A DNA stretch of 64,000 bases from Alcaligenes sp. SDU_A2 (lineage in GTDB: Bacteria; Pseudomonadota; Gammaproteobacteria; Burkholderiales; Burkholderiaceae_B): the NCBI RefSeq assembly GCF_038237375.1, contig NZ_CP151273.1:62001-126000 (forward strand). The letters run 5' to 3'. Positions 1 to 9,409 of this stretch are shown in pieces; position 1 is the stretch's first letter, and each line of letters opens with the position of its first letter. The notes beneath the pieces were generated by a model, which saw nothing but the letters and a program-made list of their open reading frames with translations, was not told the origin of the DNA and made no database searches. A program made the position numbers and the translations under genes.

Positions 1-206
1 GCCAATTTAATCGCTGCATGACTAATACGGGTACCTGGCTCCAGCATGATGCACACTACCGAGCCAACCGGTATATGCATACGCTCGCCATTGACTTCGT
101 CAATGACCACGAATGCCCCGTCCCTAACATCAATACGCCCCATACCCACAAAGATCATGGAGTTGCGCTCTTTAATCGGGATAGGGCGTAAAGGAAGGTA
201 CGCCAT
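1..206 (-). CDS. cas1: CRISPR-associated endonuclease Cas1, type I-E (5' part only)
   Basis: The first 68 codons of Cas1, the integrase that with Cas2 inserts new spacers, run off the left edge. The translation begins MAYLPLRPIPIKERNSM and continues FVGMGRIDVRDGAFVVID and PVGSVVCIMLEPGTRISHAA, which is the characteristic N-terminal domain of the I-E Cas1 subfamily. The start ATG shares one base with the cas6e stop (TAATG at 208-204), so the two genes are translationally coupled. The catalytic Glu/His/Asp residues lie outside the window, so activity cannot be judged. Cas2 and the array are expected further left. Confidence 0.93.
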   Translation of the reverse strand, partial: MAYLPLRPIPIKERNSMIFVGMGRIDVRDGAFVVIDEVNGERMHIPVGSVVCIMLEPGTRISHAAIKL

Positions 207-853
207 TACACGGGCCGAAGAAGCATCAGGCCGCAGCCCAGGGCCTTGGCTCGCCCATACCCAAGACAATACTGCTGCCAAAAAAGATCAGGATTCTGGA
301 TCGTCAACACCCCTTGATAATCGACACTGGAAAAACGAATCGTGCCTTTCTTTTTCCGGCTTTGATGCTGCATATACCCATCCACCGCAGCAGGCATATC
401 CAAAGAGAACCCCCATTCCCGGGCTCGCCTGTCCTGCCCCAGCCAGTCCTGGGCGGCCTGTTCCATCGCAGCTTGGCACTGCTCTGGATTCAAGCCTTGC
501 TGCCTGGACCGCTGTTTGGCATGCATCAGGACATCGTGGCGCTTGTGATCAGAACACACCGTAGGATTGGCCCGCAGACTGAATGCCAACTTCTGACCAA
601 CTGCCAGACGTGGCCGAAACGCTTTGCTGCGCACCACAAACGCGGGATGAGCCGCAGGTGCCTGCTCGGACAAGACATAAAACTGCATACCACCGGGGCT
701 CATTTCCTGACGGAAAATAAACGTGCGTGCAGCCTGGTCGGTAAACAACTGCCACAACACCTGATGCTCGGCGTAAGCACCATTTCGGCTCAAAGTCTGT
801 GCGATCAACTGCCCTGCCCCACCCGGGGCCAAGCTGATCTTGGACAAATACAT
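206..853 (-). CDS. cas6e: Cas6e (CasE/Cse3) crRNA-processing endoribonuclease
   Basis: This 215-residue protein cuts the CRISPR transcript at the 3' base of each repeat hairpin, leaving an 8-nt 5' handle, and stays on the crRNA in Cascade. It starts MYLSKISL (the first ferredoxin-like strand). It carries the conserved EHQVLWQLF segment, whose His30 matches the catalytic histidine of the family, then RSKAFRP and FSLRANPT, and ends with the glycine-rich GRAKALGCGLMLL loop near the C-terminus. Its start codon directly abuts the cas5e stop. The protein would also process the CRISPR-like RNA at 5048-5128. Length and motifs look intact. Confidence 0.95.
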   Translation of the reverse strand: MYLSKISLAPGGAGQLIAQTLSRNGAYAEHQVLWQLFTDQAARTFIFRQEMSPGGMQFYVLSEQAPAAHPAFVVRSKAFRPRLAVGQKLAFSLRANPTVCSDHKRHDVLMHAKQRSRQQGLNPEQCQAAMEQAAQDWLGQDRRAREWGFSLDMPAAVDGYMQHQSRKKKGTIRFSSVDYQGVLTIQNPDLFWQQYCLGYGRAKALGCGLMLLRPV

Positions 854-1591
854 TTATGCCTCCTGCTCATCGAGCTGATAGCACACACGCTGGGAAAATT
901 GCCAGCGTGCCCGATTCAACGGCTCATCCCAAGGTGTCGTACGAACGGCATGCGACACATCGCCGCCCAACCGATCCTGATCACCCTCCCAGCTATACCG
1001 GGCCCAGCTATCCTGTTGCAGCCACCAGCCATCCTCTTTAAGAGAACGCGTCAAGGGCGCAAAAGGCTGATTCAACGCGTCTTTCAAATTGACGGCACTG
1101 CATAAGGCAGGTGCCAGCGGCAAGGCGGGCGGGCACGATTTCCGACCCAGATACAACTGAAAGACAGGCTGCCGCAATGCCTGCTGCAATTGCTCCAAGG
1201 TATAAACAGCGCCTTGGCTCAACCAGACCGCCACGACCCACAAACCGTCACAGCGATAATCCCGCTTGGATAGGATGGTCTCTGGGCTTGGGTCCGACAG
1301 TTCCGACTGGCGAGTCAGGTGCACAACCTTGCTGCGCTGCGGCGGTACCTGGGCGGTGTGATAGTCACGCAGCAAGGTGCCCGGTGCGCATTGCTTAATG
1401 CCAAAACAAACACTGCTCTGTAACGCGCTCAAGGCCGTTTCATCGTCGCGCCGGATGCCCAGAGCCGCTCCCAGCAAGCCCAGCAAGGCTGAGCGCGACG
1501 GCATACTTGCCGTCGGACGCTCCTCGCCCACAGCCGTGGTTCCCCAACTGGCGAGCGGACCATATAGACGAAAAACCAGGTATTGCTGCAT
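854..1591 (-). CDS. cas5e: Cas5e (CasD) Cascade subunit
   Basis: Cas5e caps the 5' handle of the crRNA in type I-E Cascade. The 245-residue protein opens MQQYLVFRLYGPLASWG, followed by GEERPTASMPSRSALLGLL, the family's N-terminal signature. A longer reading frame begins eight codons upstream. The ATG at 1591 is preferred because a full Shine-Dalgarno (AAGGAGGT) sits 4 bases before it and overlaps the cas7e stop codon, which implies coupling. The gene lies between cas7e and cas6e in the usual I-E order. Nothing suggests decay. Confidence 0.95.
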   Translation of the reverse strand: MQQYLVFRLYGPLASWGTTAVGEERPTASMPSRSALLGLLGAALGIRRDDETALSALQSSVCFGIKQCAPGTLLRDYHTAQVPPQRSKVVHLTRQSELSDPSPETILSKRDYRCDGLWVVAVWLSQGAVYTLEQLQQALRQPVFQLYLGRKSCPPALPLAPALCSAVNLKDALNQPFAPLTRSLKEDGWWLQQDSWARYSWEGDQDRLGGDVSHAVRTTPWDEPLNRARWQFSQRVCYQLDEQEA

Positions 1592-1601
1592 GGCCACCTC
1601 C

Positions 1602-2636
1602 TTACGCGCTTGCAAAGTCCAGCACTTCGTTCAGCGAACCTTGTCCCGCTGCGACGTTCAAGGTGCAACGCTGATCGGCGCACGCTCCATAGGCGTGATC
1701 AAAACGTTCGACCTGTTGTTCCAGGGCAGCGACCGCATCAAACAGATAGTCCTCACCATGCACAGGTTTAAGAAAAGCGACCGACAAGGATCGTGGCTGC
1801 TGAGCGCCTTTTTCAACCAGCACATAGCTGGCATAGGCGCGACTGGCAAAACTGTTTTGCTTGCCGGACGGAGCCACTTTTGTAGCCGCTTCAACCAAGG
1901 CCCGGATGGTCTGACGAGTCAGGTCTTGCTTGCCGCCCAGGCTTTCCAACAACTGGCTTTTATTGATGCAGATGTAGCTGTAAAACAAAGCCGCCGCAAA
2001 ACCCGATTCGCCGATATGGGCCGAACCGGCATCGTCCTTGCCATCGTTCAAATCGTCCACAGCGGTGAAATAATCATCTTCGACCACCACGGAATGCACA
2101 CTGATGGCATGCGCGACCTGGCAAGCCGCTTCGACGGAATATTCCGGGCTGGACGCCAGCATACGACCGAACAAAGCAATATCGACGGCGCTGTGATCAT
2201 GTTTAAGCAAGGCCAGTTCTTCTTTGCTGGGTGCGCGCTTTTCTTCTGCCAGCCGTTTGACCAGATCGCGGGCCGCTTTCTGCTCTGCAGGGCTGATATG
2301 AGCCAACTGCTCAATTTCCAAAGAGTCTTTTTTTCCTTTGCCAAACACGGCTGCAATTGAAGCGGCCCATTCGCGCGCCTGCTTATCCGCTATGCCCGCA
2401 TCAACTAACTGTTGATGAATTTCCAGGCCAAAACGCTTGGTACGCGTACCCAAATGGCCTGCCAATGCTTGCTGGAACAGCTCCGAGACACGCCAGTGAC
2501 GTTTCAAGCTTTGCGAGCTAATACGCAAACGTTCCGTACCGCCCATCAAGGCTGTCTTGGGACGCCCGAGATCATCTCGGTTCAAATTGGCAGGAGGGTA
2601 AGAGGTCAACAGATGCAGCTGAATAAATTCACTCAC
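1602..2636 (-). CDS. cas7e: Cas7e (CasC/Cse4) Cascade backbone subunit
   Basis: Six copies of Cas7e normally form the Cascade backbone along the spacer; the backbone flips out every sixth guide base, which matters for the guide at 5078. Early conserved blocks are QLHLLTSYPPANLNRDD and RISSQSLKR. A thumb-region block FTAVDDL..GSAHIGESGF lies near residue 205. A longer frame exists upstream, but family alignment places the start at the GTG at 2636 (VSEFIQLHLL), preceded by AAGG. That gives 344 residues, close to E. coli CasC (363). The gap to the cse2 stop is 38 bases. Confidence 0.94.
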   Translation of the reverse strand: MSEFIQLHLLTSYPPANLNRDDLGRPKTALMGGTERLRISSQSLKRHWRVSELFQQALAGHLGTRTKRFGLEIHQQLVDAGIADKQAREWAASIAAVFGKGKKDSLEIEQLAHISPAEQKAARDLVKRLAEEKRAPSKEELALLKHDHSAVDIALFGRMLASSPEYSVEAACQVAHAISVHSVVVEDDYFTAVDDLNDGKDDAGSAHIGESGFAAALFYSYICINKSQLLESLGGKQDLTRQTIRALVEAATKVAPSGKQNSFASRAYASYVLVEKGAQQPRSLSVAFLKPVHGEDYLFDAVAALEQQVERFDHAYGACADQRCTLNVAAGQGSLNEVLDFASA

Positions 2637-2674
2637 GTCATTACCTTTTTCAAAAAAATCATCTTCCGATTTGC

Positions 2675-3247
2675 TTATTTCTTGGCGGCTGCAGCAGCCC
2701 GGAAATAATCCGTAGCCCACCGCACCACGACCCGCTGGTCTGTTCGGCCTGGACGCAGACGGCGCTTTTCATCAAACCATTTCACAATGTCTGCGGCGAC
2801 CGCTTCCACAGGCAGGGTATGCCCAAGCTGCTGTGCCAGCCGACGCAGCTGACGCAATAAATCGTTAGGGCTGCGAACGTGCAGCAACTTATAAAAACGC
2901 TGTTCGCTAACCAGTGGTTTGCCCGAGGATTTATCCTTGTCGACCTTTCCGGCCGCCCCCCCGACCGAGGAGCCGCCATTAACGGCCACATAGGCCAAAA
3001 CACCCGCAATGACAGCCAGGCACTCCACATCCAGATCCGCATCCGGTTCCTGAGCATCCGCCACACTGAACCACAAGGCCCTGAACCCTTCGGTCAGCAC
3101 AATGTCGTCCACCGCGGCGCAACGCTTCAGTTCGGCCCGATATCGTGTCGGCGCTGGTCTGATGCCCTGCTTTTCCAGCTCATCTCGGCTTTGCACCATG
3201 CTGCACCACCAGCGCAGCGCCTTTTCCTGTACCGTTTTGCTATTCAT
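2675..3247 (-). CDS. casB: Cse2 (CasB) small Cascade subunit
   Basis: Cse2 is the dimeric small subunit that holds the displaced non-target strand in the I-E R-loop. The 190-residue, mostly helical protein has the family features: a conserved WW near the start (ALRWWCSMV), an Arg/Lys-rich stretch ending in APTRYRAELKRCA, and a C-terminal GRTDQRVVVRWATDYFRA segment. The start overlaps the cse1 stop by 8 bases. The rest of the sequence is poorly conserved, as is normal for Cse2, so the call rests on position plus these short motifs. Confidence 0.9.
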   Translation of the reverse strand: MNSKTVQEKALRWWCSMVQSRDELEKQGIRPAPTRYRAELKRCAAVDDIVLTEGFRALWFSVADAQEPDADLDVECLAVIAGVLAYVAVNGGSSVGGAAGKVDKDKSSGKPLVSEQRFYKLLHVRSPNDLLRQLRRLAQQLGHTLPVEAVAADIVKWFDEKRRLRPGRTDQRVVVRWATDYFRAAAAAKK

Positions 3248-4844
3248 GCGCCACGCTCTCCTGCTGTGCCGTTTGTTGAATCTGATACGCTGATTTAAAG
3301 GCTTTCACCTCCTTGCCAACCTGTAGCCAGCCCTGCAGATGACGCCGGGCCTGCATACGCTTGCTCATGGAGCGCACATCGCCCAGCTCTGTAAATGCGT
3401 ACTGATCGAAAATTCTCAAAGCCGTCTCCCGCAAGATGCGCAACCACTGTTCTGCTGGCGCGCTGTTCAGCACCTGTCCGTCGCTATGAACGATGCTCCT
3501 GACCACATCAAAAAAATCGGATTCCGTGCTCTGCCAAAAGCTGACATCCACAAAGGACATATCGCCCTTAGCCTCGCCAGGACTTTCGAACCAGGCTGCC
3601 TTGATCTTGCTGCGGCAGTGCCATAGCGCCAGGTTGGCCAACTCCTGCAGTTCCTTGATGACGATAAGAATGGATGTTTGCTGCTCGGAGGACACCGCAA
3701 ACACCGGCATGGAAGCCGCATGCCAGCCACGCGCCTTCATATTGTCCATGTCGTACCCCGACACCCATAGCTGAGGCACAATGCGCCCGCGTTGCTCCAG
3801 GCCCCTACGCGCAGAGTCGTACTGCACGACATTTCTGGGACAACGCTGCCCATGCTGATGGCTGCTGATGGTCAGCACATCCCAGATCTTGTAGTTCAGA
3901 CCGCCGGGCTGCCCCTTTAAAGACAACTCAGGTGAATCCGGCTTTTTAGGGTCCCACCGATAAGGCGTCAAAGGATGATCCCAGTTACCGGCATAATTGA
4001 TTCCGTAGTTTTGTGTTTTGTAACTACGTACGGACTGGTCGGTGTCGACACCACTGATGGCACATACGGCAGCACGATCCTCCACAATCAGACGAATGCG
4101 ACGCGGCATGGACCAGTACATCTGCAAGGGATGTACATCGTGCGCATACACTTCAGTACCCGGCTGCTCACTTTGCCGAGTCGGGGCCAGCCACGGAAAA
4201 ACCATCCCGCTGCGCAGATCCGGCTCGTCGTAGGGCCAAAGATCCTTGTGTATCACGTTGAACCACAACTTTTGCCAGAGTGATGCCTGCGGGTCCTCGG
4301 GCAAGACCAGCACCGTCAGCGGCCCGCCCCCGCGCAAACCGACACGATGACCCGCGCCGCCTGCCGGCGCATTCACCTGCAACGTCCACAGCGCCAAGGC
4401 AGCCATGCCTGGCGACATGACCGCACCGACACCCCGCTTGATGAAGTGGTCGGTATTTTTCTTGATGGTGTTTTCGCCGGGCGCATCGATTAAAAGACCT
4501 GAGACCGGCACAGGCTTATTTGCTTCCAACAAATCAAAATCCTGCATGAAACACGGCCCGGAACCACTTATTTGAAAAGCATGTCCGATTCGTGCCAAAC
4601 GTTGGGCCAAAGCAGCCTCGGAAGGGACGTCATAAAACCAATCAATCCATTCTTCTTCGTCGTCCGGCTGCATGGCTGTCTGCAAAATGGCAATCAGCAG
4701 GACATAGGCGGCACTGGCGAAATCCTCGCGCGGCAAGGCCAGATCCACAATATCGTCACGAACCATCGCCGTCACCGGCAGGACTTGAGTAGAGCCGTCC
4801 CGGAGCCGGAACGGCAGCCAGGGGTCGGTCAGTAAATTTTGCAT
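3240..4844 (-). CDS. casA: Cse1 (CasA/Cas8e) large Cascade subunit
   Basis: Cse1 recognises the PAM and recruits Cas3. The 534-residue protein begins MQNLLTDPWLPFRLRDGST, the family N-terminus. It includes FMQDFDLLEANKPVPVSGLLIDAPGENTIKK-type segments near residue 100, which form the loop region contacting the PAM. GGAG lies 8-11 bases before the ATG. It is the first gene of the Cascade operon. Its promoter (-10 at 4875-4880, -35 at 4899-4904, minus strand) overlaps a probable Cascade target site (4903-4937), so the operon is probably self-repressed through the RNA at 5048-5128. Confidence 0.95.
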   Translation of the reverse strand: MQNLLTDPWLPFRLRDGSTQVLPVTAMVRDDIVDLALPREDFASAAYVLLIAILQTAMQPDDEEEWIDWFYDVPSEAALAQRLARIGHAFQISGSGPCFMQDFDLLEANKPVPVSGLLIDAPGENTIKKNTDHFIKRGVGAVMSPGMAALALWTLQVNAPAGGAGHRVGLRGGGPLTVLVLPEDPQASLWQKLWFNVIHKDLWPYDEPDLRSGMVFPWLAPTRQSEQPGTEVYAHDVHPLQMYWSMPRRIRLIVEDRAAVCAISGVDTDQSVRSYKTQNYGINYAGNWDHPLTPYRWDPKKPDSPELSLKGQPGGLNYKIWDVLTISSHQHGQRCPRNVVQYDSARRGLEQRGRIVPQLWVSGYDMDNMKARGWHAASMPVFAVSSEQQTSILIVIKELQELANLALWHCRSKIKAAWFESPGEAKGDMSFVDVSFWQSTESDFFDVVRSIVHSDGQVLNSAPAEQWLRILRETALRIFDQYAFTELGDVRSMSKRMQARRHLQGWLQVGKEVKAFKSAYQIQQTAQQESVAHE

Positions 4845-4874
4845 TTCAGGACTCCACGGAATGGATACGTGCTC

Positions 4875-4904
4875 ATCATATTCGATTCAAAAAAAAATTA
4901 ACAA
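4875..4904 (-). promoter_or_regulatory. Predicted promoter of the cse1-cas1 (Cascade) operon
   Basis: Read on the minus strand, TTGTTA (4904-4899) and TATGAT (4880-4875) are separated by 18 bases. The expected transcription start is near 4868, about 24 bases before the cse1 ATG. The spacer contains a run of nine Ts. The AAG motif at 4903-4905 (plus strand) overlaps the -35 box. Predicted by eye only. Confidence 0.6.
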
Positions 4905-4937
4905 GCTGAAAGCTAGTCCATTAAACCACAAAAAGAA
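4903..4937 (+). promoter_or_regulatory. Predicted Cascade/CreR target: AAG PAM plus partial protospacer over the cas promoter
   Basis: AAG at 4903-4905 is a classic type I-E PAM. The bases after it (4906 on) read CTGAAAGCTAGTCC, against CTGAAGGCTAGCCC at the start of the guide at 5078. That is 12 of 14 identical, with mismatches at positions 6 and 12, the guide positions that Cascade flips out. Similarity fades after position 14, so binding without efficient Cas3 cleavage is expected. The site covers the -35 box of the cse1 promoter and the DNA just upstream. The right end assumes a full 32-base footprint. Confidence 0.8.
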
Positions 4938-5037
4938 CATGACCATCTCAGACTATCGATGTCCGCACACCAATACCAACAAGCGGCCTTACTCGCCCCC
5001 ATTGCCAAGCGTTACAAGCGAACCATTTTTGAGTCTG

Positions 5038-5043
5038 TACAAT
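5038..5043 (+). promoter_or_regulatory. Candidate -10 element for the CRISPR-like RNA
   Basis: TACAAT at 5038-5043 would start transcription near 5050, almost exactly at the first repeat. The best -35 is TTACAA (5012-5017) at a poor 20-base spacing, so the promoter is probably weak or activator-assisted. This is inference from sequence only. Confidence 0.45.
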
Positions 5044-5047
5044 GCCG

Positions 5048-5128
5048 CTGTTCTCCCGCTTTTCTGGAGATCTACCGCTGAAGGCTAGCCCTTCACCTCC
5101 CGTTCCCCGCTTCGGCGGGGATTTTTTC
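5048..5128 (+). ncRNA. creR: CreR-like Cas-regulating RNA: degenerate two-repeat mini-CRISPR
   Basis: Two CRISPR-repeat-like units flank a 22-base spacer. Unit 1 (5048-5077) reads TGTTC-TCCCGC, TTTT, CTGGAGAT, CTACCG; it keeps a short CTCC/GGAG stem and an 8-base handle ATCTACCG (canonical E. coli handle ATAAACCG). Unit 2 (5100-5128) reads GTTCCCCGC-TTCG-GCGGGGAT, identical to the E. coli I-E repeat core outside the 4-base loop. The spacer (5078-5099) starts CTGAAGGCTAGCCC and nearly matches a PAM-flanked site over the cse1 promoter (4903-4937). Cas6e processing would give a crRNA-like guide directing Cascade to its own promoter. Families of such RNAs (CreR) are known for types I-B, I-E and V-A. 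The RNA is antisense to the last codons of cas3. Symbol given by analogy. Confidence 0.82.
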
Positions 5129-7861
5129 GTACACACCCAATTCCGCGTCGTAAGCAATGGTGCCATCCTGATCGACGACCCAAGGATGCAGAAACTGCAA
5201 CTTGCGATGTTGCTGCGTCAAGGCATCCCAATGCGACTGCTCGGCATCTGATAGTGGCGGCAGACGGCTGGCGTACCGTTTCTGGGGCAGCCGCACGGTA
5301 CTTAGCTCCCAGGCAAAACGATCGTCCTGGACCCACGGCACCAAGCCGTACTCCGAATGGCGCAGCAACACGACATTGGCGACGTCCACATCGCTGTAGC
5401 GCGTGCTGATATCCAGCTCGTCCTCGTACCAGTTTTGACGCCCTTGCATGGAATAGCCTTGCTCCCACTTTAGGGCGTTAGAGCGGGCCGACGCGGCCAT
5501 GCTGCGGTCTTTCCCTTCCACACGCTGCTCTTCCTGGCGCAAGGACTCGGGGATCGCGTCATCCGCCTGCTCCCCATAGACAGCTTCGATCAACTCCCGC
5601 GCCTGTTCAGGCAGGCTCCAGCCACCCAGCTCACGCAGCTTGCGCATACCTAGCCACAAGCGCCCCGGCGAACGGTACACGGCCTGCGTGCCGCCAAAGT
5701 CCGCTTTTTTCAACCAGTCATGAAGGGGTTCATCCTGCCAGGGCGGCGCATGCACCCACAAAATAGGGGTGCCCCGCGCATCCGCTTGCCCCGGAGCCTG
5801 TCGGTTGCCCTGTGTATCGCGCGCATGACGATGTAGACGCCCCGCCCGCTGGATTAAGTCGTCGATCAGGCAAAGATCGCTGATCATGACATCGGCATCC
5901 GCATCCAGACTTTCCTGAAAGACCTGGGTGGTAATCAGCACACGCCCGGCGCGTTGCGACGCCCCCGCACTCTTGCCGAAATGCTGCAGCACCTCGGTCT
6001 CGATTCGTTGCCGATCCGCCATGACAAAACGACTATGGAATAACTGACACCTGGCCGGATGCCGCACCTGGCCGCGCACAGCCCGATACGCCTCGATCGC
6101 TTCGGCTACGGTATTGCGCACCCACACCACGCAGCGCCCCTGCTCCACAGCATCCACCACTACATCAAGGCAAGTGTCCACACTCTGCAAGAATTGAACG
6201 TCGACCCGACGCTCAGACCCCGCCCGGGATGCCAAAGTGTGCTCCTGCACACGTTCGCCTCTGAACATATTGACGGAAGTCGCCAAAGGAAATGCCTGGT
6301 TGCGCAGTGAATAAGGCTCCGTCTGCATGGCGTTCAGCCAGATATTCACCAAGCGCTGGCGCTGTGCCAGCGGCAAGGTGGCCGTCAACAAAACCGCCGA
6401 CCCGCCTTGATGCACATGCATGGTCAACAAGCTCTCCAGCAACTCGAACATATAGGCGTCGGCGGCATGGATTTCGTCAAACACCAGCACTTTGCGGCTC
6501 AAGCCTAGCAGGCGCAACGATTGATGTTTGCGCGGCAAAGCCGCTAACAAGGCCTGATCAATCGTGCCTACCCCTACCGGAGCCAATAAGGCTTTTTTGC
6601 GGGAATCGCCCAGCCACTGATTGCATCGTATGGTGGCCGTGTCATCTGCGCTGGCGTAAGCGCCATCTTCACGCTCCTGCTCATGCACAGCCTGCCGAAA
6701 AGCCGGATGCATGTCCCTGGCTCCGTGTGCCAACACGATACTGGGTACCGAACCATCAGGCTGACGCAACATCTGCAAGTAGTAGTCCGCCACGCGGTTA
6801 AACATGGCATTGGACGTGGCCATCGTCGGCAAGCCGAAATAAAACCCATCGGCGGCACCCGCCTGTAGCAAACGGTGCGTCAACGCCAGAGCGGCCTCGG
6901 TCTTGCCTGCACCCGTTACGTCCTCCAGGATAAATAGCTGCGGTCCGCCATCGACATCAACCGTCTGTGCCCAATCCTGCAACGGAGAGGGCGCAAAACG
7001 AAAATGATGCTCTATGGATCGAAAGGCGGACACGGCAGGCACAGCGTCCAATTCTGCCTGTTGCAGCGCCTTTTCCGCCTTGCCCAGGGCCTGCTCCCAG
7101 TATTGCGGCAAGGAAAGCGCACTGGATTGATACGGGAAAAATTCGCGATTAGACCCCAGCCAATCGGCCAGCACCACGATTCCGGCTAAGGGCCAGCTTA
7201 GTTGCCGGGCGCGATCCTTCAGGCTCTTGTCGGTTAATACAGACGCTGACAAGGTAGTCGGCAAGATATGGTCGATCTGCGCGATATCGTTCAGAAACGC
7301 TCGGGCAGCAGAAATGTCGTGCGCGTGCGTGTATTTTTTTTCCAGTATTTCAATGTTCATGGTGTCCACGGGACGGCCGTGATGACCCAAGGAACATTCC
7401 ATTAAAATACTTAAGAAATTTGTCGCCTTATTTTTTTCACGCGGCGTTAACTCGTCCCAATCCCAACACCAACTCAGAAAATCCTCTTTCAGATAATTCC
7501 AGAAACATAAACCGAGTCTGTCATGATGCGCGGTTTGTGCATCGTATGGATATGGGGACTGGCCGGACCACAAGCGCGGATCCGCACGGCTATTAAGACC
7601 TTGAAATGCCGAGGCAAACTTGCCCAGATCATGCAGCATGACAAGGATGACAATCAGGCGAAGAAAATCCTCCTGATCCAGCCCCAGGAAATCGGCCATG
7701 TCCCGCGTCATGGTCCGCCGGTTCCGCAGGAAACAATAGGCAACGGCGGCGACATCCAAACAGTGATACGCAAGCGGATGAAACTCCACTTCCCTGGAAT
7801 CGCCCGTTTTTCGGTCCAGCTTTCCCCAATAAAGGTGATAGAGTTTTTTTTCTTCCGACAC
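5093..7861 (-). CDS. cas3: Cas3 HD nuclease-helicase, type I-E
   Basis: Cas3 is recruited by Cascade R-loops to nick and degrade target DNA. The 922-residue protein has an N-terminal HD domain (H33, H77-D78 in VMLHDLGKFA, HH at 160-161). An SF2 helicase core follows: Walker A DVTGAGKT at 314-321, DEIH at 462-465, TATLP at 493-497, and motif VI QRAGRLHRH at 671-679. All key residues are present. The start is GTG with AAGG upstream. It is a separate transcription unit from cse1, 248 bases away; the CRISPR-like RNA at 5048-5128 runs antisense into its 3' end. The last ten codons are shaped by that RNA's terminator hairpin. Confidence 0.96.
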   Translation of the reverse strand: MSEEKKLYHLYWGKLDRKTGDSREVEFHPLAYHCLDVAAVAYCFLRNRRTMTRDMADFLGLDQEDFLRLIVILVMLHDLGKFASAFQGLNSRADPRLWSGQSPYPYDAQTAHHDRLGLCFWNYLKEDFLSWCWDWDELTPREKNKATNFLSILMECSLGHHGRPVDTMNIEILEKKYTHAHDISAARAFLNDIAQIDHILPTTLSASVLTDKSLKDRARQLSWPLAGIVVLADWLGSNREFFPYQSSALSLPQYWEQALGKAEKALQQAELDAVPAVSAFRSIEHHFRFAPSPLQDWAQTVDVDGGPQLFILEDVTGAGKTEAALALTHRLLQAGAADGFYFGLPTMATSNAMFNRVADYYLQMLRQPDGSVPSIVLAHGARDMHPAFRQAVHEQEREDGAYASADDTATIRCNQWLGDSRKKALLAPVGVGTIDQALLAALPRKHQSLRLLGLSRKVLVFDEIHAADAYMFELLESLLTMHVHQGGSAVLLTATLPLAQRQRLVNIWLNAMQTEPYSLRNQAFPLATSVNMFRGERVQEHTLASRAGSERRVDVQFLQSVDTCLDVVVDAVEQGRCVVWVRNTVAEAIEAYRAVRGQVRHPARCQLFHSRFVMADRQRIETEVLQHFGKSAGASQRAGRVLITTQVFQESLDADADVMISDLCLIDDLIQRAGRLHRHARDTQGNRQAPGQADARGTPILWVHAPPWQDEPLHDWLKKADFGGTQAVYRSPGRLWLGMRKLRELGGWSLPEQARELIEAVYGEQADDAIPESLRQEEQRVEGKDRSMAASARSNALKWEQGYSMQGRQNWYEDELDISTRYSDVDVANVVLLRHSEYGLVPWVQDDRFAWELSTVRLPQKRYASRLPPLSDAEQSHWDALTQQHRKLQFLHPWVVDQDGTIAYDAELGVYEKIPAEAGNGR
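5104..5127 (+). terminator. Intrinsic terminator formed by the second CRISPR-like repeat
   Basis: A 7-bp stem (TCCCCGC/GCGGGGA) closed by a TTCG tetraloop is followed at once by six Ts (5122-5127). It is both the repeat hairpin of the CRISPR-like RNA and a textbook plus-strand terminator. On the minus strand the same bases encode the Cas3 C-terminus (KIPAEAGNGR). Confidence 0.75.
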
Positions 7862-8038: not shown

Positions 8039-9409
8039 CTATCCTGCACCTTGCTCTTTGCCCTGATCACTGGCCGGTTCGGCGGGCAAGACCCAATCCA
8101 GGCGTTCGTGCTCGATGTCTGCATGCCAAGCCTCGATGGAGGGCTGGCTGCGGTTGGCGCGCGCGGACAGTTCGGCAAAACGGCTGACCTTGCCGTATAG
8201 CCCTTGCTGGCCCGCCAACGCAGTGACCGTGCTGTTGTAGTGCTTGCCCGCCTGACCCAGGGTTTCGCCCAGCTTCTTCAGACGCTCGGCCAGCAAGGAC
8301 ACCTGGTTGTAGATCTCGCCGGCGCGCTGGCTCAGTTCGTGGGCCTGCTCGTTGCTGCGCACCATCATCCAGACATTGGCCACCGTGCGCAAAATGGGCA
8401 GCAAGGTCGTGTGCGACACCATCAATACATTCTTGGACAAGCCGTAGTCGAACAGCCCGTGTTGCTGCTGCAAGGCTTGCATGTAGGCCGCCTCCACCGG
8501 CACATACATAAATACGAAACCCGGACTGCCCAGGCCCGGCAAGGCGCTATAGTCTTTGCCGGACAGATCGTCGATATGTTTGCGCAAAGCCTGAACGTGG
8601 GCGTTCAGGCTTTGCTGGCGCTCGGTTTCGGATTCGGCCCGCACGGCCCGATCGTAATCCACCAACGACACCTTGCAATCGAGCACCAGATGTTTGTTCT
8701 GGGGCAGGTGAATCACAAAATCCGGATAGCGCAGGCGGCCCTGCTCGTCGCGCGCCTGCCACTGCGTGTCGAAATGCACGCCACGCACCAGGCCAGCCGC
8801 TTCCAGCGTTCTTTCCAACTGGGTTTCGCCCCAGTTACCCGTGGTTTTCTTGTCGCCCTTCAGGGCGACGGCCAAAGAGTGCGCCTCGGCGCTCATGCGC
8901 AGACCCATTTCCTGCATGCGCTGCAATTGTGCGTCCAATGCGGCCTGACCCTTAATGGACTCGTCATGCACCTGATTGACCCGCAACTGAAAACCCGCCA
9001 GTTGCTCCCGGAACGGGCGCAGCATTTCATCCAGAGTACGCTGGCTGTCCTGGCGCAAGGTCTGCCCTTTGGCTTCCAGCACTTGCTGCGCCAGCGACTC
9101 GAACTGCAAACGCATCTGCTCGCGACTGCTCTCCAGATCCGCCTGAATGGCCTGATTACGTGTTTGCTGCGCCTGCAGGTCTGCATCGCGCCGGATCAGT
9201 TCTTTTTCCAGATCCTGCCAGCGATCACGCGCGTGGTCGAGCTGTTCGCGGGCCAATGCCAGTTCCTGCTCCAGCCGTCCTCGCTCCTGGTCCAGGATGC
9301 TCAACGCCGGTGCCACCGAACGCCCCCTCATCCAGGCACCGATAACAACGCCCACCACCAAGGCCAGCACAATGCCGGCCAGCCATAATCCACTGGTTTC
9401 AATACCCAT
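8039..9409 (-). CDS. rmuC: DNA recombination protein RmuC
   Basis: RmuC is a membrane-tethered, nuclease-fold protein that limits sequence inversions and rearrangements. The protein opens with one N-terminal membrane helix (SGLWLAGIVLALVVGVVIGAW). A long coiled coil rich in Glu, Gln and Arg spans residues 40-170, followed by the conserved PD-(D/E)XK domain (TTGNWGETQLERTLEAAGL, YPDFVIHLPQNKHLVLDCKVSLVDYDRA). The ATG at 9409 (456 residues) is chosen because GGAG sits 8 bases before it; upstream in-frame ATG/TTG codons would add up to 14 residues. It lies beside cas3 with no shared transcription evident. Confidence 0.92.
   Translation of the reverse strand: MGIETSGLWLAGIVLALVVGVVIGAWMRGRSVAPALSILDQERGRLEQELALAREQLDHARDRWQDLEKELIRRDADLQAQQTRNQAIQADLESSREQMRLQFESLAQQVLEAKGQTLRQDSQRTLDEMLRPFREQLAGFQLRVNQVHDESIKGQAALDAQLQRMQEMGLRMSAEAHSLAVALKGDKKTTGNWGETQLERTLEAAGLVRGVHFDTQWQARDEQGRLRYPDFVIHLPQNKHLVLDCKVSLVDYDRAVRAESETERQQSLNAHVQALRKHIDDLSGKDYSALPGLGSPGFVFMYVPVEAAYMQALQQQHGLFDYGLSKNVLMVSHTTLLPILRTVANVWMMVRSNEQAHELSQRAGEIYNQVSLLAERLKKLGETLGQAGKHYNSTVTALAGQQGLYGKVSRFAELSARANRSQPSIEAWHADIEHERLDWVLPAEPASDQGKEQGAG

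Follow-up and report, generated by a model that had tools for sequence, protein, structure and literature searches.

A probable cas-regulating RNA between cas3 and cse1 of Alcaligenes sp. SDU_A2, and a prophage element whose guide matches the same cas promoter site

Does the short stretch between cas3 and cse1 in the type I-E CRISPR (clustered regularly interspaced short palindromic repeats) locus of Alcaligenes sp. SDU_A2 encode an RNA that directs the cell's own Cascade complex to a cas promoter? This stretch, positions 5048-5128 of a 64,000-nucleotide piece of DNA that we call the window (contig NZ_CP151273.1 of assembly GCF_038237375.1; C1:62001-126000 of a genome of 3,652,774 bases in the one contig C1), had been proposed, in an earlier sequence-only reading, to encode a cas-regulating RNA (CreR). 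Liu et al. 2023 is reportedly the primary paper on these RNAs. From sequence comparisons we find it very likely that the stretch is a type I-E CreR, which would be an unannotated addition to a known kind. We also think it likely, with a little less assurance, that the combined explanation is correct, namely that a CreR in the window and a copy of it in a resident prophage are aimed at the same cas promoter. Coordinates are collected in Table 1, and labels such as L047 denote fetched stretches of sequence.

The guide of the cas3-cse1 element matches a site in the cse1 promoter region

The element consists of two degenerate type I-E pseudo-repeats flanking a 22-nt guide, and the sequence-only reading had both the letters and the coordinates of this arrangement between cas3 and cse1 right. 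It is oriented divergently from cse1; its units read rightwards, and the I-E operon around the cas3/cse1 gap reads leftwards. The guide begins with CTGAAGGCTAGCCC at the base directly 3' of the repeat handle, and its first 14 bases agree at 12 of 14 positions with 5'-AAG-CTGAAaGCTAGtCC (4903-4919), 172 bp from the guide. AAG is a typical I-E protospacer-adjacent motif (PAM), and structures of I-E complexes show that Cascade flips out every sixth base of the CRISPR RNA (crRNA). Since positions 6 and 12, where the mismatches lie, are such flipped-out bases, there is no mismatch at any base of the first 14 that Cascade would read. The predicted cse1 promoter is the sole match of a consensus scan in 4700-5300 (shuffle mean 0.2), and its -35 box is overlapped by the AAG of the target. 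That complementarity fades after the first 14 bases fits Cascade binding without cutting.

How often such a match arises by chance was estimated with 325,790 14-mers, taken on both strands from the window, the three array regions and the region of the prophage. Self-matches aside, two sequences matched any of eight intergenic AAG-flanked sites at 12/12 positions: the window guide, which this test counted twice owing to an overlap between a fetched stretch and the window, and the prophage guide described below. Both begin directly after a repeat handle, and two other places score 11/12. Across the chromosome the pattern CTGAANGCTAGNCC is matched perfectly at three places and no more, namely the target and the guides of the window and the prophage, and the cas promoter site is the sole perfect AAG-flanked seed match genome-wide. 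Five more places in the chromosome match the seed with one mismatch, one of them after AAG; a reversed-pattern control gives 20 places at no more than one mismatch, so these five are background. The one after AAG stands at C1:3069900 (L029; CTGAAAGCCAGCCC) and is perhaps an off-target of the CreR, or chance.

Limited complementarity to the cognate cas promoter, next to a PAM, is what is expected of a CreR, and it is found here, the promoter itself being a consensus prediction. This guide-target match, which the earlier reading did not contain, is the decisive evidence for a CreR in the window; together with the recurrence of the arrangement in relatives (below), the AAG and the 12/12 seed positions in the predicted cse1 promoter support that reading's identification of the element.

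Table 1. Features of the cas3-cse1 element, its target, the surrounding cas genes and the prophage.
Feature	Position	Strand	Remarks
-10-like TACAAT	5038..5043	+	candidate promoter of mini-CRISPR RNA, start near 5050; read by eye
Pseudo-repeat 1	5049..5077	+	TGTTCTCCCGCTTTTCTGGAGATCTACCG; 16/25 consensus positions, handle 6/8
Guide	5078..5099	+	CTGAAGGCTAGCCCTTCACCTC; 22 nt
Pseudo-repeat 2	5102..5122	+	GTTCCCCGCTTCGGCGGGGAT; T run 5122-5127 (T x6); also terminator-like; overlaps cas3 3' end
PAM of target	4903..4905	+	AAG
Target	4906..4919	+	CTGAAAGCTAGTCC; mismatches to window guide at 6 and 12 only
Predicted cse1 promoter	4875..4904	-	-35 TTGTTA (4904-4899), 18 nt, -10 TATGAT (4880-4875)
cas3	5093..7861	-	TIGR01587, TIGR01596
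cse1/cas8e	3240..4844	-	first gene of operon thought repressed; TIGR02547, E 1.4e-123
cse2/cas11	2675..3247	-	
cas7 (cse4)	1602..2720	-	
cas5e	854..1615	-	
cas6e	206..853	-	expected processing enzyme
cas1, 5' part	3..281	-	
Prophage mini-CRISPR	C1:2833359-2833429 (L047:1360-1430)		repeat GTTCCCCGCGGCGGCGGGGATTAACCG, guide CTGAATGCTAGACCAGCCCCCT, then GTTCCCCGCGTAGGCGGGGATT
Prophage reverse transcriptase gene	L049:9192-10406	+	RVT_1, phrog_1423

The pseudo-repeats resemble the strain's own CRISPR repeat

The strain has three I-E arrays (C1:59.9-60.6 kb, 2961.4-2963.9 kb and 3230.1-3230.6 kb) built of the repeat GTGTTCCCCGCGCAAGCGGGGATGAACCG or a loop variant; the nearest one with GTGTTCCCCGCGCAAGCGGGGATGAACCG lies 1.4-2.1 kb left of the window. 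Comparison of the two units with this repeat, which had been suggested as a check, finds the resemblance present. As the sequence-only reading had it, unit 2 keeps the I-E repeat core, with 0 mismatches and as the sole such place in the window, and it folds strongly (-14.7 kcal/mol, z -3.2). The description of unit 1 as a shortened stem with a handle-like end was also borne out; its 3' end reads ATCTACCG, resembling a 5' handle at 6/8 positions, versus ATGAACCG in the strain's own repeat. Because unit 2 overlaps the last cas3 codons and also has the form of a terminator-like hairpin, it is by itself weak evidence. By the ordinary marks of a CRISPR array, which are near-identical repeats and spacers of 32-33 nt, the window element is not one; its repeats have diverged, and its spacer is 22 nt long versus 32-33 nt for the 47 spacers collected from the three arrays. 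Adjacent array spacers at C1:2962688-2962776 (L013) are identical, a duplicated unit. No open reading frame (ORF) of at least 80 aa lies within the 248-bp cas3-cse1 gap; the ORF at 5085-5468 (-) overlaps the gap edge by 8 bases.

Guide-target pairing recurs in relatives with different guides

Cse1 was found in 19 of 268 genomes of the family and in 38 of 399 of an order sample (both counts include this genome and they share one other); the nine further genomes of the genus lack it. Together with 17 stretches from a class sample and one from E. coli K-12, the 47 stretches upstream of Cse1 from family and order make a set of 65, in which a single gene is represented twice, by L115 and L129, and a few other stretches begin within the gene owing to a partial match. 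Sixteen of the 65 hold a repeat-like unit, a handle and a guide that matches an AAG-flanked site upstream of cse1. Ten of these sixteen passed strict cut-offs (handle at least 7/8, seed at least 9/10) in a scan that admitted four PAMs and excluded L069 (the second piece of one gene) and L070 (a weak partial match); the others are the window element (handle 6/8, seed 10/10), L058 from a pattern search, and four from the class sample and E. coli. An AAG-only scan gave 18 rows, from which L084 and L096 were dropped (handle 6/8; repeat scores 13/25 and 12/25). Under the strict cut-offs there were 10 upstream matches versus 0 at the control ends of the loci. Despite the choice of four PAMs, AAG preceded all ten.

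Apart from one guide common to two close relatives, every locus has a guide of its own with a target to match; the pairing is thereby kept while the sequence changes, which is a mark of a CreR. Since the guides of L121 and L125 are identical, the 16 loci hold at most 15 independent guides. Guide and target share a strand in 15 loci; there the mini-CRISPR runs antisense to the operon, and its target follows on the cse1 side at a distance of 55-256 nt from the guide. L052 has its target on the opposite strand. What homologous loci conserve, on which the sequence-only reading had staked its case, is thus the repeat, the guide-target match and the layout, the guide sequence itself being variable. 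When each unit was compared with its own and with other loci, best seed scores of 9-10/10 were reached in 13/34 own-locus and 6/2176 other-locus comparisons; the window unit stands outside this control because its handle score of 6 is below the cut-off of 7.

The distribution of matches along the 16 guide-target pairs is informative as well. Of the positions that did not enter the selection, 6 and 12 match in 4/16 and 3/16 pairs, where 4 is expected by chance, 13-16 match at 43/64 and 17-22 at 23/96, the latter equal to chance. Selection drew on positions 1-11 other than 6, so the agreement of 155/160 at these is no proof on its own. This position pattern is, as far as sequence can tell, the footprint of guide-target pairing by Cascade. 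It provides a signature by which further CreRs may be sought: a handle, followed by a guide whose positions 1-5, 7-11 and, for the most part, 13-16 pair with an AAG-flanked site upstream of cse1, 6 and 12 being free. We looked by eye for a general overlap of PAM and -35 box, and found the PAM complement CTT followed by G (giving TTG) in 5/15 loci, about the chance rate of 1/4; the overlap is claimed for the window only.

The signature also selects the cas3-casA gap of E. coli K-12 MG1655 (L108), where the unit TTCCCTACTTAAGTAGGGATAAACCG, at about 8485-8510 of the locus, resembles a CreR; its guide is TTATTGGTCTTATTATCG and its AAG target TTATTcGTtTTATTATt. Silencing of the cas operon in E. coli K-12 has been studied for years. 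Of 5426 E. coli genomes, 1106 have this gap at a coverage of at least 80%.

Alternatives for the window element, and how it might work

Several observations weigh against a CreR in the window. At up to three mismatches the repeat core has two matches in the window, both strands of the unit 2 place, versus a shuffle mean of 1.5. Unit 1 folds weakly (-5 kcal/mol, z -1.3), and 21/200 shuffles equal it. The consensus promoter scan has no match at TACAAT, where there is no good -35 box, and the CreR's own predicted promoter is weak. Among the relatives, 49 of the 65 stretches gave no CreR; loose thresholds applied to the 47 stretches returned 25 upstream matches versus 23 at control ends of the same loci, and the stricter cut-offs were chosen after that loose scan.

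The feature might accordingly be a rho-independent terminator (5104-5128) preceded by a chance resemblance to a repeat. The hairpin with its T6 tail makes a good terminator, and core matches at up to three mismatches are expected by chance in the window; such a terminator leaves unexplained, however, the handle, the PAM-flanked 12/12 match that starts at the first base after it, and the same arrangement with other guides in relatives. Terminator and repeat 2 could moreover be one hairpin, both descriptions being true, and we consider a terminator alone very unlikely. A decayed array remnant whose spacer matches nearby by accident is harder still to credit: the repeats are degenerate and a genuine array is nearby, but the 47 array spacers are of 32-33 nt versus 22 here, and a seed match that recurs in relatives with different guides is not decay. 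Equally hard to credit is a CreA antitoxin acting on a small toxin RNA: the gap contains no whole ORF of at least 80 aa, and the sole perfect AAG-flanked seed match is the cse1 promoter site and not the promoter of an adjacent toxin gene, even though a very small toxin RNA could fit in the 248-bp gap.

If the window element is a CreR, as we think, a plus-strand RNA would be processed by Cas6e to a crRNA-like RNA with the handle AUCUACCG and the 22-nt guide, and Cascade would load it. Cascade bound at the cse1 promoter site would then block transcription of cse1-cse2-cas7-cas5-cas6e, while the pairing would end too early for Cas3 to cut the chromosome; abundant array crRNAs would compete for Cascade and so relieve the repression. 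By inference from the published CreR model, the element may tune the Cascade level to the crRNA supply, as the sequence-only reading proposed.

A prophage carries a second mini-CRISPR with the same seed

A second mini-CRISPR was found as an isolated perfect repeat core (0 mismatches) on the chromosome strand opposite to the arrays, 2.83 Mb along the chromosome and about 1.07 kb inside the boundary of a complete prophage of 52.3 kb. This prophage is delimited by a 51-bp direct repeat of the tRNA-His end (C1:2832292 and 2884522) and has genes for integrase, RecT, CII, terminase, portal, tape measure, tail fibre and lysis. Its mini-CRISPR has a repeat better preserved than the window pseudo-repeats, the handle ATTAACCG, a 22-nt guide that starts CTGAATGCTAGACC, and a second repeat; the expected RNA 5' start is AUUAACCG. 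A predicted promoter, TTTACA-16-TATAAT (11/12), ends 340 bases 5' of the repeat at the start of the preceding small ORF, such sites numbering 3 in 1.5 kb versus a shuffle mean of 1.3. The prophage is matched, after TAA, by one array spacer with 5 mismatches, of which 4 fall within the first 7 bases, so the host has probably met a relative of this phage.

The prophage guide agrees with the cas target at all 12 read positions of the first 14. Position 6 is G, A and T, and position 12 is C, T and A, in the window guide, the target and the prophage guide, respectively; the prophage guide thus varies only at positions 6 and 12, which Cascade does not read, and past position 14. The two guides differ at 7/22 positions, none of them among the 12 seed positions, an outcome with probability C(10,7)/C(22,7) = 0.0007 if the differences fell randomly. 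The prophage element and the window CreR align through the end of repeat 1, the guide and repeat 2, which suggests that the guides are of common descent, in which case selection has held the seed; otherwise they would have converged on it. By descent or by convergence, the cas promoter is to all appearance their common object.

The prophage element is most likely a phage-borne mimic of CreR, that is, a transcriptional, RNA-guided anti-CRISPR. Loaded into Cascade like the CreR, its RNA would add to the repression of the cas operon and occupy Cascade, to the phage's benefit. That the prophage RNA acts on the cas promoter seems to us fairly probable, and we lean, slightly less firmly, towards the general proposition that temperate phages carry counterfeit CreRs, whose seed copies the target of the host's cas repressor so that Cascade is commanded to shut off its own synthesis. 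If this is true, phages attack CRISPR immunity through its own regulatory RNA, and host and phage guides are tied to one target. We found no report of a phage RNA aimed at a type I cas promoter in the literature within reach of our search, which leaves out most subscription journals.

Some points tell against this. The repeats of the prophage RNA are predicted to pair with each other and not to form two hairpins, which could hinder Cas6e. An exact short-spacer I-E mini-CRISPR pattern occurs at six places in 5/268 family genomes (four at cas loci, one before a canonical repeat and taken as an array edge, and one in this prophage), with no other prophage copy among the 268; in 52 other genomes with a Cse1 match it occurs at three places, each on the cse1 contig and 5-7 kb away, and no prophage copy was seen, the places being uninspected.

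An unlikely alternative, though the strongest competitor, is that the prophage element is a decoy of the kind called Racr, which titrates Cas proteins, with a seed merely inherited from a captured host CreR. Racrs against I-E exist, according to the available part of PMC10651486, and capture is plausible because the prophage element and the window CreR align; but handle, guide and second repeat are all present in the prophage element, RacrIF1 being described there as lacking the 5' handle, and the 12 seed positions are intact while 7 of the other 10 have changed. The element may also act by titration and nothing else, may be a functionless captured CreR, or may benefit the lysogen. A mini-CRISPR that targets competing phages, the function published for archaeal viral mini-arrays (PMC11656645, in the part available), is very improbable: the guide matches the host cas promoter with its PAM, a 20-base guide pattern with positions 6, 12 and 15 free has no match in the viral_contigs collection (the 14-base seed alone was not searched), and handle plus first 11 bases has two viral_contigs matches, neither after a repeat. 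In genome_contigs, handle plus guide seed returned 13 stretches, again none after a repeat, and we took the matches in both collections as chance.

The small ORF just 5' of the prophage mini-CRISPR (L047:1009-1350, +; 113 aa long, or 93 aa if a later ATG is the start) is a candidate anti-CRISPR protein gene with no match in PHROGs or Pfam. Small proteins with weak likeness to DUF1456 and KorA/PapB, probably DNA-binding, are encoded nearby (L047:489-737, L012:4709-4987 and L047:2588-2806). No homologue of the 113-aa neighbour or of a 175-aa neighbour was confirmed in viral_contigs, by a search that reaches close relatives only, and for the 175-aa protein none was found in phages. A BLAST search of the prophage cassette against phages returned 10 records, all at the lysozyme gene stretch of the query.

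Mini-CRISPRs on other mobile elements

A slightly longer pattern gave four matches in viral_contigs: the Salmonella Anatum phage-plasmid NZ_CP014707 (L099), repeat clusters in L032 and L100, and L101, which has no hairpin. The same element is present in three Salmonella plasmids among 72,556 plasmid records (NZ_CP014707, CP075145 and NZ_KP763470; L109, L110 and L111), in each as an I-E mini-CRISPR directly after a DUF1456 gene; a fourth record matches 12% of the query only. Its repeats have equal stems and differing loops, and its 22-nt guide is GCTATATG.CCG.CTCATACGA (starting GCTATATGGCCG). The element was found in 0/50,697 phage records and 0/5,426 E. coli genomes. Neither in the cas region of E. 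coli K-12 nor in the second I-E variant of that species does the guide have a PAM-flanked match of at least 9/10 seed positions; one guide variant scores 8/10 after AAG inside cse1. Among viral contigs, the guide pattern was matched only by the one that carries the guide.

Further I-E-like repeats stand beside related genes in viral contigs. Five lie right after a DUF1456-like gene in L141:2440-2680 (IMGVR_UViG_2900074995_000003), with 23-24 nt from handle to next repeat and with the first two guides resembling each other; two, 33 nt apart, lie directly after a DUF1456 relative in L142:3280-3360; and the contig of L140 ends at such a gene. In the viral contig L032, positions 24-100 hold paired I-E-like repeats with 22-nt spacing. 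The prophage cassette itself has a weak DUF1456 relative (Pfam 24.4 bits, cut-off 27; 31% to the Salmonella protein). Phage-borne I-E mini-CRISPRs beside DUF1456-type genes, as in the Salmonella phage-plasmids, L141 and L142, may form a wider class, which we offer as a lead and not as a result. Against plasmids, the window locus matched 8 records at identities of 60-80%, in every case through its cas3 part.

Comparison with known systems

CreRs are known in types I-B, I-E and V-A (PMC13131331, in the part available), and PMC12737573, likewise available in part, treats those of type I in general. The window element lies in a cas locus of type I-E, one of the types with known CreRs, and shares with them a crRNA-like RNA from a mini-CRISPR with a partial match to the cognate cas promoter; we see no essential difference. 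A prophage-borne second copy acting in trans is not mentioned in the available portions of these two papers.

Like the Racrs portrayed in the accessible text of PMC10651486, the prophage element imitates an I-E repeat, is carried by a phage and resides in a host that has the cognate system; it differs by its handle, its cas-promoter guide and its second repeat, and is not a solitary unit as RacrIF1 is. That account has RacrIF1, the Racr with a resolved mechanism, lack a handle and form an aberrant complex, and adds that some predicted Racrs may function otherwise and that other repeat-like sequences mediate Cas-dependent transcriptional repression (PMC10651486). The Racr finder described there drops a solitary repeat if its 100-bp flanks hold a partial one (PMC10651486), so elements like that of the prophage would probably be lost. 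A repeat mimic on a mobile element, the mark of a Racr, is nonetheless what the prophage carries.

Autorepression of Cas9 by tracr-L was reportedly described by Workman et al. 2021. Judging by what is available of PMC11417352, tracr-L is alike in that a natural RNA turns the effector on its own cas promoter; it belongs to another CRISPR type and is another RNA, and phage-borne copies are not mentioned in that portion of the paper. Viral mini-CRISPR arrays in inter-viral conflict (PMC6858448, and PMC11656645 as far as available) resemble the prophage element as virus-borne repeat-spacer-repeat units that use host Cas proteins; they mostly target related viruses (PMC11656645), whereas the prophage guide matches the cas promoter of its host.
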